Assembly: GCF_023073915.1 (NCBI RefSeq)
Contig: NZ_JADPKK010000022.1
Location: 1,674,001-1,738,000 of the forward strand
DNA: 64,000 nt
DNA from: Bradyrhizobium sp. 149
GTDB lineage: Bacteria > Pseudomonadota > Alphaproteobacteria > Rhizobiales > Xanthobacteraceae
Direction of reading: 5' to 3'
Shown here piece after piece: positions 9,596 through 42,868 of the stretch; positions within the stretch are counted from its first letter, which is position 1; each line of letters begins with the position of its first letter. The notes beneath the pieces were generated by a model, which saw only the letters and a program-made list of their open reading frames with translations, did no database searches and was not told the origin of the DNA. The translations under genes were made by a program, and so were the position numbers.

Positions 9596-9681
9596 GCGGC
9601 CGGCCGCGAGGCGCGCCGGACACCGGAAAGACCCTTCACCGGCGATCAACGCCGGGAAGGGAAACATATAGGGAGGAACCG

Positions 9682-11025
9682 ATGAGGAACGACATCACAC
9701 GTCGTGATGCCTTGGCGCTGGGCCTGTCCGCTGCGGCAATCGCGGCAGCCGGTGCTCCGGCGAATGCCCAATCCACGATCAAGGCTGCAGACGTCCCCGC
9801 ACTGAAACTGCCGATCGAAAAAGGCGCATCCCTGCGCATGCTGCGACCGGTCCGCTTCGTCCAGGCCGACGAAGACGTATTCCGCGCCAATGCGGCAAAA
9901 TTCACCAAGGAGACCGGCGTCGAGATCAAGGTCGACTTCGTCGGCTGGGAAGACATCAATCAGCAAACCGCGGTGACCTCGAATTCCGGCGCCGGTCCGG
10001 ACATCATCATCGGCTTTTCCGATGCGCCGCACATCTATGTCGACAAGCTGGTCGAGCTGACCGACGTCGCCGACTATCTCGGCAAGAAATATGGCGGCTG
10101 GCTGCCGCTGGCGCAGCGCTACGGCAAGAAGAACAAGAGCCCCACCTGGATCGGGCTGCCGTTCGGAGCCACCGCGGGTCCCCTGATCTACCGCAAGTCG
10201 ATCCTGCAATCGGTCGGCTTCGACAAGGTGCCGGAAGACCATGCAGGAATCCTCGACCTGTGCCAGAAACTCCAGAAGGCCGGCAAACCGGCGGGCTTCG
10301 CGCTCGGCAATGCCAAGGGCGACGGCAACGGCTTCGCAAGCTGGGCGCTATGGTCGCACAACGCCGCTCTGCTCGACGAAGAGGGCAACGTCGTCATCAA
10401 CAGCAAGGAGACGATCGCCGCACTGAACTGGGTCAAACAGCTTTACCCCACCTTCATCGCCGGCACGACATCCTGGAACGACGTCAGCAACAACCGCGCC
10501 TACGCCGCGCAGGAGATCGCGCTGACCGCCAACGGCGTCTCGCTGTATTTTTCGCTGAAGAACGATCCGGCGACCAAGGCGATCGCCGACGACAGCGAGC
10601 ATCAGCTGTTGCCGAAGGGCTTGGCCAAGGTCTCTCCAATGGCGGGCCTGACGCTGAACGCCATGGTGTTCAAGCACAGCCAGTATCCCAACGCCGCAAA
10701 GGCCTTCCTGCAATATATGCTCGAAAAGGACCAGTACGAGCCATGGCTCAACGCCAACTCCGGCTACTGGTCCCAGCCGCTCGCCGCCTATGCCGAGGCC
10801 GGCGTGTGGTCGCAGGATCCCAAGGTGAAGCTGTTCAAGGACACCATGAACACCACCTATTATGACGGCTACGCGGGCCCGATCTCGACTGCGACCGGCG
10901 CCGTGAGCGCCGACTACGTGCTGATTCAGATGTTCGCGTCCGTCGCGACCGGCGCTGCCACGCCGGAAGCCGCAGCCGCGGAAGCCGAGCAGCGCAGCAA
11001 GCGGTACTTCCGGCGCCAGAAGTAG
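9682..11025 (+). CDS. ABC sugar-type substrate-binding protein, Tat-exported
   Basis: 447 residues, family 1 extracellular solute-binding protein (CUT1-like). The N-terminus NDITRRDALALGLSAAA carries a twin-arginine motif before a hydrophobic core and ends ...APANAQ, so export by Tat is likely. The mature part shows the usual alternation (FTKETGVEIKVDFVGWED, GPDIIIGFSD, WIGLPFGATAGPLIYRKSIL). The start at 9682 is fixed by GGGAGGAACC just upstream and by the Tat motif; a longer frame overlaps the preceding gene. It delivers its ligand to the two permeases encoded next. Ligand identity is not readable from sequence. Confidence 0.92.
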   Translation: MRNDITRRDALALGLSAAAIAAAGAPANAQSTIKAADVPALKLPIEKGASLRMLRPVRFVQADEDVFRANAAKFTKETGVEIKVDFVGWEDINQQTAVTSNSGAGPDIIIGFSDAPHIYVDKLVELTDVADYLGKKYGGWLPLAQRYGKKNKSPTWIGLPFGATAGPLIYRKSILQSVGFDKVPEDHAGILDLCQKLQKAGKPAGFALGNAKGDGNGFASWALWSHNAALLDEEGNVVINSKETIAALNWVKQLYPTFIAGTTSWNDVSNNRAYAAQEIALTANGVSLYFSLKNDPATKAIADDSEHQLLPKGLAKVSPMAGLTLNAMVFKHSQYPNAAKAFLQYMLEKDQYEPWLNANSGYWSQPLAAYAEAGVWSQDPKVKLFKDTMNTTYYDGYAGPISTATGAVSADYVLIQMFASVATGAATPEAAAAEAEQRSKRYFRRQK

Positions 11026-40750: not shown

Positions 40751-40930
40751 CTAGTGGAGCGTGTCGCCGTGCCTCAGACGCTCGATCTGGTCCTTGACCA
40801 TCAACTTCCGGCGCTTCAACTCAACAATTTGCAGGTCGTCTGTTGAAAGGTGCACGAGAGCGTCGTGCAATTCGTTTTCGAGAGTTTTGTGCTTCCGTTC
40901 CAATTCAACCAGATGTGCCTGAATTGTCAT
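40751..40930 (-). CDS. DUF465 (YdcH-like) small protein
   Basis: A 59-residue protein, below many gene-finder limits. It starts MTIQAHLVELERKHKTLENE and ends IERLRHGDTLH. Its middle, LKRRKLMVKDQIERL, is the DUF465 signature (LK--KL-LKD-I--L). The whole chain is a charged two-helix coiled coil. A strong GAGGAGG lies 7 bp before the ATG. Function of the family is unknown. A second DUF465 gene lies divergently at 41260. Confidence 0.92.
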   Translation of the reverse strand: MTIQAHLVELERKHKTLENELHDALVHLSTDDLQIVELKRRKLMVKDQIERLRHGDTLH

Positions 40931-41259: not shown

Positions 41260-41466
41260 ATGACCAATGAAGATGCGCGCGAACTCGAATCCGAGCTCGC
41301 CCGGTTGCACCAGGAACACCGAGACCTCGATGCGGCGATCGATGCACTGCATCAGTCGCCCGCCCCCGACCTGTTGCGGTTACAGCGGTTAAAGAAACGC
41401 AAGCTGCTGTTGCGCGACCGTATCGCGTTCATCGAAGACCAGATCACGCCCGACATCATCGCCTGA
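41260..41466 (+). CDS. DUF465 (YdcH-like) small protein, second copy
   Basis: 68 residues, almost entirely helical: ELESELARLHQEHRDLDAAI, then DLLRLQRLKKRKLLLRDRIAFIEDQI. The LKKRKLLLRDRI segment is the DUF465 signature. It is acidic at the N-terminus and has no signal peptide. The ribosome site before the ATG is poor. Paralogous in type to the 40751-40930 product. Function unknown. Confidence 0.9.
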   Translation: MTNEDARELESELARLHQEHRDLDAAIDALHQSPAPDLLRLQRLKKRKLLLRDRIAFIEDQITPDIIA

Positions 41467-41521
41467 TCCACAGGCAGAGCTTTACGGCGGCCGCCGCGCG
41501 TGAATCCGCTTGACTCCAAAG

Positions 41522-41536
41522 GAACAAAATAAGAAC
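41522..41536 (+). promoter_or_regulatory. Probable LexA/SOS box (GAAC-N7-GAAC)
   Basis: GAAC-AAAATAA-GAAC is an exact match to the direct-repeat SOS box used by LexA in many alphaproteobacteria, with the typical A/T-rich spacer. It lies 47 bp before the ATG at 41583 and just downstream of a TTGACT (41510-41515) that could be a -35 element, so a bound LexA would block RNA polymerase. Confidence 0.65.
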
Positions 41537-41582
41537 ATTTGGACATCCAACGCCCAGAAAAACCGCCCAAGGAAAAACGCAG

Positions 41583-41801
41583 ATGTCGGCAAACGCCCTT
41601 CTCGACAACAGCCATTATGAACAAGCCTGCGATCAGGCGATCGCAATGTGCGACGGCAATCTGCGCAGCACCATCAAGGCGCTGATCATGGCCAATGAAT
41701 ATCTGGAGGCCGAGCTCGAGGAATTGCAGGCGGCGATTTCCGCCGGCTGCATTCCGGAGACCTCGCGCAGCAAGATGCGGAGCAAGAGCAGCGCCGCCTG
41801 A
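41583..41801 (+). CDS. Short helical protein behind a probable SOS box, unknown
   Basis: 72 residues, soluble, predicted mostly helical, with two cysteines in the central part (YEQACDQAIAMCDGNL) and a coiled-coil-like segment (LIMANEYLEAELEELQAAIS). The C-terminus is Lys/Arg/Ser-rich. AAGGA precedes the ATG by 9 bp. No family name recognised, although similar short proteins occur in rhizobia as I recall. If LexA controls it, it would be made after DNA damage. The next gene follows after 23 bp. Confidence 0.75.
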   Translation: MSANALLDNSHYEQACDQAIAMCDGNLRSTIKALIMANEYLEAELEELQAAISAGCIPETSRSKMRSKSSAA

Positions 41802-41824
41802 CTTGTCAGCTATCGGAGCCGACC

Positions 41825-42076
41825 ATGTCCGATGTCACCTATTACGTTGCATTGCCCTTCCTGATCGACGAGGACGGATCGCCGGTCGCAGGTGCGGCCG
41901 AGGAATGCCAGACTTCGGCGGCCGCGTTACGGCGCGCCGAGATTATGTCGCACGGCGCCGGCCATACCGGCGCGGTCGCGTTCAGCCGCAGCGGCAATCC
42001 CATGACCGGCGAATTCGGTGACGCCAAACTGCTCCGCAGTTTCGGCGATGTACCGAAAGACCTCGGCACGCTTTAA
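41825..42076 (+). CDS. Small conserved protein, unknown
   Basis: 83 residues beginning MSDVTYYVALPFLIDEDGSP, soluble, no signal peptide. AAALRRAEIMSHGAGHTGAV and AFSRSGNPMTGEFGDA suggest a small alpha/beta protein. It lies 23 bp behind the 41583 gene and probably shares its promoter and the GAAC-N7-GAAC box. Its TAA stop abuts the stop of the opposite GGDEF gene. Function is unassigned. Confidence 0.75.
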   Translation: MSDVTYYVALPFLIDEDGSPVAGAAEECQTSAAALRRAEIMSHGAGHTGAVAFSRSGNPMTGEFGDAKLLRSFGDVPKDLGTL

Positions 42077-42868
42077 TTAACTGCTGACGAGTCTGATGCG
42101 CGGCTCGTGCCGCCTGTGCGCCTTGCGCACATACATGGCGGCATCGGCCTCCTCCAGGGCGCGGATGGCGTCGGACTGCACGCCAAGCAGGGCGACGCCG
42201 GCGGAAGCGCCCGCGCTCACGTGCTGGCCGCGAAAGACAAAGGACAATTCGTCGATAGCCTGCTCGAAAGCCGCGGCTTTCGCCTTGGCGTCGGTCTCGC
42301 TGAGATTCCAGAGCAGCAGCGCGAACTCGTCGCCGCCGAGCCGGCCGACCACGTCCGAGGCGCGGATCTGCCGCGTCAGCGTGGCGGCAATCGCCTTCAG
42401 CACCTCGTCGCCGGCGGCATGGCCGAAGGAATCGTTGATCGGCTTCAGCCGATCGACGTCGAGCACGATCAGTGCGCCGCTGGCGCGGTAGCGCTTCATG
42501 TAGGCGACGGCGCGGGCGAGTTCGCGTTCGAAGCCGCGCCGGTTCGGAATTTCGAGCAGGAAGTCGGTGTCGGCGGCCGCCTCGAGCTCCGCGACCCGCC
42601 GCAGCGCCCGCTTGAGCTTGCTCCGGAGGTCGCGGATAGCAGCCTTGACAGCCGCCTCGGCGCCGTCATCGGCCGGCGCTTCGCGCCGCGACGGTCTGGT
42701 CGGAGGCCTCACCGGACGCTTGGCCGGACGCTTGGGGGCAGCTTTGGAACGGTTGGCGCTGGTCTTCGGGCCCTTTTTGGCCTTCGTAGCGCTCGCCCTT
42801 TTTGGTTTCTTCATGGGCATCCTGCTCAATGAAGGCTTGCGGGGATTCACCAAGACAGGATAGTGCAT
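42077..42868 (-). CDS. Diguanylate cyclase with a lysine/proline-rich N-terminal tail
   Basis: 263 residues. Residues ~17-70 are a basic, disordered tail rich in Lys, Arg, Pro and Ala (segments KKPKRASATKAKKGPK and KRPAKRPVRPPTRPSRR) resembling histone H1-type tails. A short coiled coil follows (~75-97), then a GGDEF domain. The site reads GRLGGDEFALL near residue 174, and RASD sits five residues before it, giving the RxxD inhibition site. It should make cyclic-di-GMP from two GTP in the cytosol under product inhibition. The ATG at 42868 has AAGGAGAAGGG upstream; ATGs at 42820 and 42814 are possible but would lose little of the tail. Confidence 0.9.
   Translation of the reverse strand: MHYPVLVNPRKPSLSRMPMKKPKRASATKAKKGPKTSANRSKAAPKRPAKRPVRPPTRPSRREAPADDGAEAAVKAAIRDLRSKLKRALRRVAELEAAADTDFLLEIPNRRGFERELARAVAYMKRYRASGALIVLDVDRLKPINDSFGHAAGDEVLKAIAATLTRQIRASDVVGRLGGDEFALLLWNLSETDAKAKAAAFEQAIDELSFVFRGQHVSAGASAGVALLGVQSDAIRALEEADAAMYVRKAHRRHEPRIRLVSS

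Follow-up and report, generated by a model that had tools for sequence, protein, structure and literature searches.

In the bacterial SOS response, RecA filaments set off the self-cleavage of LexA after DNA damage. SRAP, the HMCES/YedK protein, shields abasic sites in single-stranded DNA. Neighborhoods in which SRAP, Ku, and Zn-ribbon genes occur together were described by Aravind et al. in 2013 (PMC3765255), and section 6 of that paper mentions partners that chelate Zn as well as Ku, ligase, and polymerases. According to a study of Caulobacter (PMC4211646), SidA and DidA are small, damage-induced membrane proteins that stop cell division by acting on FtsW/FtsI/FtsN; SidA is controlled by LexA, whereas DidA is independent of SOS. 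The locus considered here probably adds a two-gene operon to the first of these systems, LexA control being of a known kind. Both of the protein families that it encodes were absent from the libraries and the literature searched. The literature searches, whose coverage stopped short of the 2004 LexA-regulon comparison (PMC545464), found no paper on these genes.

The window, by which we mean the whole stretch of 64,000 nucleotides of Bradyrhizobium DNA that was analyzed, contains the arrangement given in Table 1. The original prediction had placed a perfect GAAC-N7-GAAC sequence ahead of a 72-codon and an 83-codon gene, and the sequence bears this out, including the gap of 23 bp that separates the two genes. 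Two short DUF465 proteins are encoded just 5' of the operon (40751-40930 on the minus strand and 41260-41466 on the plus strand), and a convergent GGDEF gene lies 3' of ORF2, the two stop codons standing back to back at 42076-42077 with zero spacing.

Table 1. Coordinates of the operon in the window and of two further sites in the same genome
Feature	Position	Strand	Remarks
LexA (SOS) box GAACAAAATAAGAAC	41522-41536	+	Perfect GAAC-N7-GAAC; same box type before own-genome lexA and recA
TTGACT, putative -35 element	41510-41515	+	Last base six bases 5' of the box; 100% at the same spacing in 80/80 loci (best 80 of 261)
GAACAT, putative -10 element	41533-41538	+	17 bp past TTGACT; shares the second half-site; assignment inferred
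ORF1, 72 codons, small helical soluble protein	41583-41801	+	ATG...TGA
ORF2, 83 codons, small alpha/beta protein	41825-42076	+	ATG...TAA
MDNRINEI-family site L041	C13:755500-759500, box at 2081		
MDNRINEI-family site L045	C11:346000-349200, box at 1592		

By their codon constraint, ORF1 and ORF2 look like true coding genes. The uncorrected pN/pS, taken in each case over 400 random pairs, is 0.059 for ORF1 (38-codon core, 80 sequences) and 0.199 for ORF2 (80 codons, 79 sequences). The nearest named relatives of ORF1, at 99% identity, include those of strains labeled B. japonicum and B. canariense.

The bare pattern GAAC-N7-GAAC is at chance level in the window (2 found against 1.82 expected), and genome-wide it occurs 145 times against 167 for a reversed control pattern. 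The second copy in the window, GAACCGATGAGGAAC at 9676-9690, has a spacer unlike the conserved ones. These frequencies are what can be said for reading the box as a chance match and the genes as lying outside SOS control. That the box stands above chance follows from its conservation among relatives and not from any rarity of the pattern. A scan of genome contigs gave 261 ORF1 relatives, the best 80 of which were taken as the ortholog sample. Every one of these 80 loci has a perfect GAAC-N7-GAAC upstream of the ORF1 match, with the box starting 46-112 bases before it, and in every one an ORF2 match follows on the strand of ORF1, at a gap of 13-152 nt, mostly 13-28; the ORF2 frame of a single locus (L092) is interrupted after 45 codons. 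Eleven permuted half-sites, sought in the upstream regions of the same loci, gave 0-3 matches. When the loci are aligned on the box, the eight half-site bases are 100% conserved because the rows were centered on a perfect box, but TTGACT is equally invariant at its fixed distance from the box in 80/80, and this is not so by construction. The A and the T 3' of the box are conserved at 99% and 97%, and columns further away drop to 0.3-0.9. The operon itself and the conservation of its box and putative promoter are supported by these loci. A fixed TTGACT amid drifting outer columns, together with boxes before family members across the order (see below), leaves the chance reading scarcely credible.

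The conservation of the box upstream of orthologs was the check proposed with the original prediction, and its outcome supports control of the operon by LexA, which the pattern of conservation makes very probable. Selection on both proteins is also strongly purifying, and we regard the designation of the locus as a two-gene SOS operon as supported. Two oddities were met among related loci. In one member of the same genus (L013, at ~1490), the ORF1 ortholog has ATA in place of the ATG start, with the box kept and no in-frame ATG, GTG, or TTG found upstream of the ATA. A record titled Frankia sp. RB7 (L146, JAUEPE010000010.1) contains a Bradyrhizobium-type operon with 89% protein identity, and its title is probably a misnomer.

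A sigma-70 consensus scan did not call a promoter at the box; the assignment of TTGACT, a 17-bp spacer, and GAACAT comes from conservation. With GAACAT the likely -10 element, LexA would cover the promoter. In the undamaged cell, LexA bound to the box would fill the -35/-10 spacer and overlap the probable -10 element, blocking RNA polymerase. DNA damage would then lead, by way of RecA filaments and LexA self-cleavage, to expression of the operon. In the same genome, the lexA box is GAACATGTATCGAAC, GAACATATTGCGAAC precedes the RecA coding region, and a GAAC-N7-GAAC box lies 165 bp upstream of ssb.

Each of the proteins encoded by the operon represents, in Bradyrhizobium, a family for which the searches found no description. 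Members of the ORF1 family share the core D.AIA.CGGD.R.AI.ALI.ANE.LE. No Pfam or NCBIfam model was matched by ORF1 above the curated cut-off, the best stray E-value being 0.02 in searches that also took in PHROG, and ORF2 matched neither Pfam nor NCBIfam. These results agree with the earlier view that neither product resembles a repair enzyme. A single-sequence search found relatives of ORF1 in 63 of the 149 genomes examined from the host's family, and a profile search found them in 65 of 397 from its order. Among 289 genomes of the class there were three matches, namely the own genome and two chance fragments. The two lie outside the order and are, by eye, UDP-glucose dehydrogenase-like and alanyl-tRNA synthetase-like, and a class-wide spread of the family was rejected. 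Many genomes contain several ORF1 paralogs; the own genome has three members of the family, two of them behind boxes.

The association of the family with the box recurs well beyond the orthologs. Among the ORF1 members that were retrieved, a perfect box within 300 bp upstream was found for 34 of 58 in the host's family (a number that includes the window) and for 38 of 61 in eight further families of the order; the latter count was made from match starts and becomes 37/61 from predicted start codons. The 11 permuted half-sites score 0-2 in both sets. Two members without a tblastn match (L031 and L035) were placed by search coordinates and are both boxless in the count, and the 61 leave out weaker rows (e.g. 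G548, G771, G842, G936, and some second rows). A perfect box is absent from the 300 bp upstream of 24/58 and 23/61 members, whole subgroups included: none of the subgroups ending in -LH/-IH or -LN has one. Some of the boxless members have a box further upstream, and for others none was seen. The ORF1 family is therefore partly outside SOS.

The AlphaFold2 model of ORF1 consists of helices at residues 3-53 and 59-68 (mean pLDDT 79.2, pTM 0.46, from a shallow alignment), in keeping with the small helical protein originally predicted. Leu34, Asn38, and Leu41 are invariant in 38/38 members of the family (alignment A1) and, with residues Leu27, Leu45, and Leu48 of the protein in the window, fit a heptad, giving a zipper-like pattern. 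A buried Asn in a leucine zipper is reminiscent of dimeric GCN4-type coiled coils. A sequence search against solved structures returned a single chance-level match, to a GCN4 chimera (E 2.2). Any folding of ORF1 as a hairpin or as a dimer is a guess, because the model is of one long helix with a pTM of 0.46 and a shallow alignment. The orthologs end in Ala-Ala in 77 of 80 cases, which we take to be a possible ClpXP-type degradation signal, and ORF1 might be turned over through it. A second motif, S.GY.RG(R), lies near the C terminus of many members beyond the window's ortholog group and is absent from the window protein.

Weak Pfam matches prompted the suggestion that during SOS ORF1 modulates either RarA or the clamp loader by mimicking, as a free-standing protein, the AAA+ lid of one or the other, with its GD.R motif in place of sensor 2. 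The Pfam model AAA_assoc_2 is weakly matched by 14 of 38 members (best E 2.3e-4), a few match RFC lid models in the same register, and a search of the own genome returned RarA and one other open frame, followed by two paralogs of ORF1 at E 0.16 and 1.47. All of the Pfam matches fall below the curated cut-off, and the window ORF1 has none. In a profile-profile comparison (L013 and L059 left out of the ORF1 profile), a profile of 30 RarA proteins ranks only 9th of 45, with a probability of 0.19% over 19 columns. The ORF1 family itself heads the 44 comparison clusters, the cluster in 8th place appears to be RarA again, and six unrelated clusters outscore both RarA profiles; the calibration is rough because the clusters were built from the loci in hand and include the ORF1 family and a RarA-like cluster. 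Homology of ORF1 to the AAA+ lid was rejected on the ground that its similarity falls below that of six unrelated clusters, and we consider a lid mimic very improbable.

ORF2 belongs to a family with the motif TYYV..PF...GA.AFSR.GDP..GEF.DA...FG.VP. Its AlphaFold2 model (mean pLDDT 65.8, pTM 0.58) gave no Foldseek match at E <= 0.001 (0 of 484; best 0.48), and a sequence search found no counterpart among solved structures. PHROG yielded stray matches only, at E 0.032 for the window protein and 0.0059 for one viral relative. All but one of 117 genomes of the genus (116) have a relative of ORF2, as do 49 of 199 of the order and 8 of 289 of the class, the eight including the own genome and a second genome from its order. 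Relatives are also found on 18 plasmid records, 15 of them from Bradyrhizobium, and on 20 IMG/VR viral contigs. A perfect box lies within 300 bp upstream of 17 of the 20 viral relatives, for which permuted half-sites score 0-2 (the start was extrapolated for the partial matches L339, L346, and L347). Genomic relatives beyond the genus have it in 12 of 29 cases; 17 of the 29 are without it, among them most of the most divergent.

The viral contigs make a domesticated prophage function a serious rival for ORF2: ORF2, and with it ORF1, would be phage-derived and have persisted in the host as remnants or decoys, the original phage role being in an SOS-triggered lysis-lysogeny switch (an anti-repressor, for example) or in phage recombination. 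Ten of the contigs were inspected, and within a few kb of ORF2 these contained a repressor-type protein in four cases (HTH and S24 in L333 and L335, S24 in L341, a repressor PHROG in L329) and an Erf annealing protein in one (L330). Relatives of ORF1 are present on three viral contigs (L203, L204, and L331). The last of these unites a SRAP gene and one for a small Cys-rich protein with a relative of ORF1, a box, and, in divergent orientation, a relative of ORF2. Set against this, a search of 50,697 named phage records gave no match to ORF1 at E 1e-5 or to ORF2 at E 0.01, and PHROG gave nothing convincing. The near-universal presence of ORF2 in the genus and the strong selection on the operon in the sample of 80 loci, the best of 261, also count against it. 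Furthermore, SRAP genes are present on two of the ten inspected contigs (L328 and L331), and phages may therefore simply carry host SOS genes. As an account of the operon, a prophage origin is on these grounds rather unlikely.

The pairing of small adjacent genes, the several copies in many genomes, and the presence of ORF2 relatives on plasmids and viral contigs would also suit an SOS-induced toxin-antitoxin system in which one small protein poisons and the other neutralizes. Against this, the two families are often separate: an ORF2 profile matches 22 of 120 ORF1 loci, and an ORF1 profile, again made without L013 and L059, matches 1 of 20 viral ORF2 loci. As to curated models of known anti-phage defense or toxin-antitoxin families, PADLOC gave no match at E 0.1, and nothing stood above cut-off in Pfam or NCBIfam. 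A toxin-antitoxin role is quite unlikely.

The genes that surround members of the two families were read by eye, and SRAP was counted by its N-terminal Met-Cys motif within about 1.5 kb on each side of ORF1. A SRAP-type gene is present in 19 of 60 ORF1 loci outside the host's family, and what looks like a further SRAP locus without the Met-Cys start (L250) is outside the 19. Pfam confirmed all five of the SRAPs that were checked, three from these loci (L242, L289, and L252) and two from viral contigs (L331 and L328). The corresponding count within the host's family is 0/58, and the link to SRAP consequently rests on other families. Ku, which was recognized in fewer loci than SRAP, enters the picture in the own genome, where a boxed ORF1 paralog (L039, C11:130700-134000) and a Ku gene diverge from either side of the box; by eye, the same arrangement is seen in L053. 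The ORF2 copy behind the L039 paralog seems to be frameshifted, its first residues being in a different frame from residues 20-80.

Several other proteins were noted beside boxes or members of the two families. Small Cys-rich, Zn-ribbon-like proteins are found beside boxes or relatives of ORF1 or ORF2 in L167/L296, L255, L204, L331, and L345, and the copies in L296 and L331 have no Pfam match. In L025, L030, L037, and L203, an uncharacterized protein with the start MES and then KRRFP.PW diverges from the relative of ORF1, its own start lying at the shared box; the L030 copy was without a Pfam match. Another small-protein family, whose members start with MDNRINEI, was seen at two sites in the own genome (Table 1), where it is oriented divergently to GAACAAAATAAGAAC / GAACAAAACATGAAC boxes. 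At the first of these, L041, the other side of the box is occupied by a gene for a DUF3072 protein, and the MDNRINEI copy has no Pfam match.

These neighbors also bear on the role originally suggested for the operon, that of a damage-induced checkpoint in which ORF1 or ORF2 halts division like SidA or DidA, or, by extension, like SulA. The existence of such proteins in an alphaproteobacterium, LexA-controlled in the case of SidA, and the well-supported LexA box at the operon are in its favor. The suggestion had cited both SidA and DidA as LexA-controlled division blockers, which is correct for SidA; for DidA it was an error, since PMC4211646 describes this protein as SOS-independent. More directly, SidA and DidA are membrane proteins according to the same source, and hydropathy gave no membrane helix in either ORF1 or ORF2, the best 19-residue Kyte-Doolittle means being 0.91 and 0.73, respectively. 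The recurrent or informative neighbors are SRAP, Ku, the Erf protein, and CI-type repressors, and no division gene was recognized near ORF1 or ORF2 relatives in this unsystematic reading by eye. The occurrence of several ORF1 paralogs per genome in many genomes is a further point against a checkpoint. A SidA/DidA-like checkpoint peptide finds no backing in these data, a soluble, SulA-like inhibitor of division is a possible variant, and a checkpoint function of any kind is unlikely.

The reading that we favor, and consider fairly probable, is that the locus is a two-gene SOS operon whose products assist, as accessory factors, the arm of the response that serves damage tolerance. The damage-tolerance role itself, which the neighboring genes suggest, we would put at somewhat better than even, and any particular partner of the two proteins much lower. 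Upon induction, two small, soluble proteins would be made. ORF1 may be a short helical adaptor, possibly dimeric through its leucine-zipper-like heptad, and ORF2 its small alpha/beta partner, and the target may be damaged or single-stranded DNA or the proteins bound there. Recruitment of the two families to LexA boxes, one at a time or as a pair, would have happened repeatedly, at some sites next to genes for SRAP, Ku, Zn-ribbon-like proteins, and prophage repressors. A more specific proposal, which we put forward tentatively and as possible rather than likely, is that ORF1 and ORF2 represent two modular LexA-controlled families that are partners of the SRAP/Ku branch and are exchanged among chromosomes and prophages of the host's order, ORF2 also by plasmids. 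If it is right, it would give the first example of small cofactors dedicated to the handling of SRAP-shielded abasic sites or broken ends, and the Bradyrhizobium operon would be a fixed, SRAP-separated version. Were the two proteins to work with SRAP or Ku, they would offer a route to the coordination of abasic-site crosslinking and end joining in the bacterial damage response.

Small SOS proteins are easily overlooked in annotation. Here, a guess founded on a single box has become a testable SOS operon that is kept in 80/80 loci (the best 80 of 261), and two small-protein families, missing from the libraries used and recurrent behind LexA boxes across the order, have been exposed.

A comparison with the described systems places the operon in the alphaproteobacterial LexA regulon by its GAAC-N7-GAAC operator, which would overlap a putative promoter, and by the presence of the same box type at lexA and recA of the own genome. 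It differs in that its products fit no family in the libraries searched and in its spacer, which starts with AAA here and in 80/80 orthologs (the best 80 of 261), compared with ATG in the own-genome lexA box and ATA in that of recA. With the AAA+ lid of RarA and the clamp loaders (Pfam AAA_assoc_2), ORF1 shares a short motif, GD.R.A...L, that falls in the same register, but the profile similarity does not rise above that of unrelated clusters. Like SidA and DidA of Caulobacter, ORF1 and ORF2 are short proteins of an alphaproteobacterium and putatively damage-induced, but the membrane-spanning helix of the Caulobacter proteins has no equivalent in their hydropathy. The SRAP/HMCES/YedK SOS neighborhoods resemble the surroundings of ORF1 and ORF2 relatives in bringing SRAP, Ku, and small Zn-ribbon-like genes together near LexA boxes. 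Section 6 of the 2013 description (PMC3765255) names neither a small helical family nor an ORF2-like protein, and the ORF1 loci of the host's own family differ from those neighborhoods in being free of SRAP.
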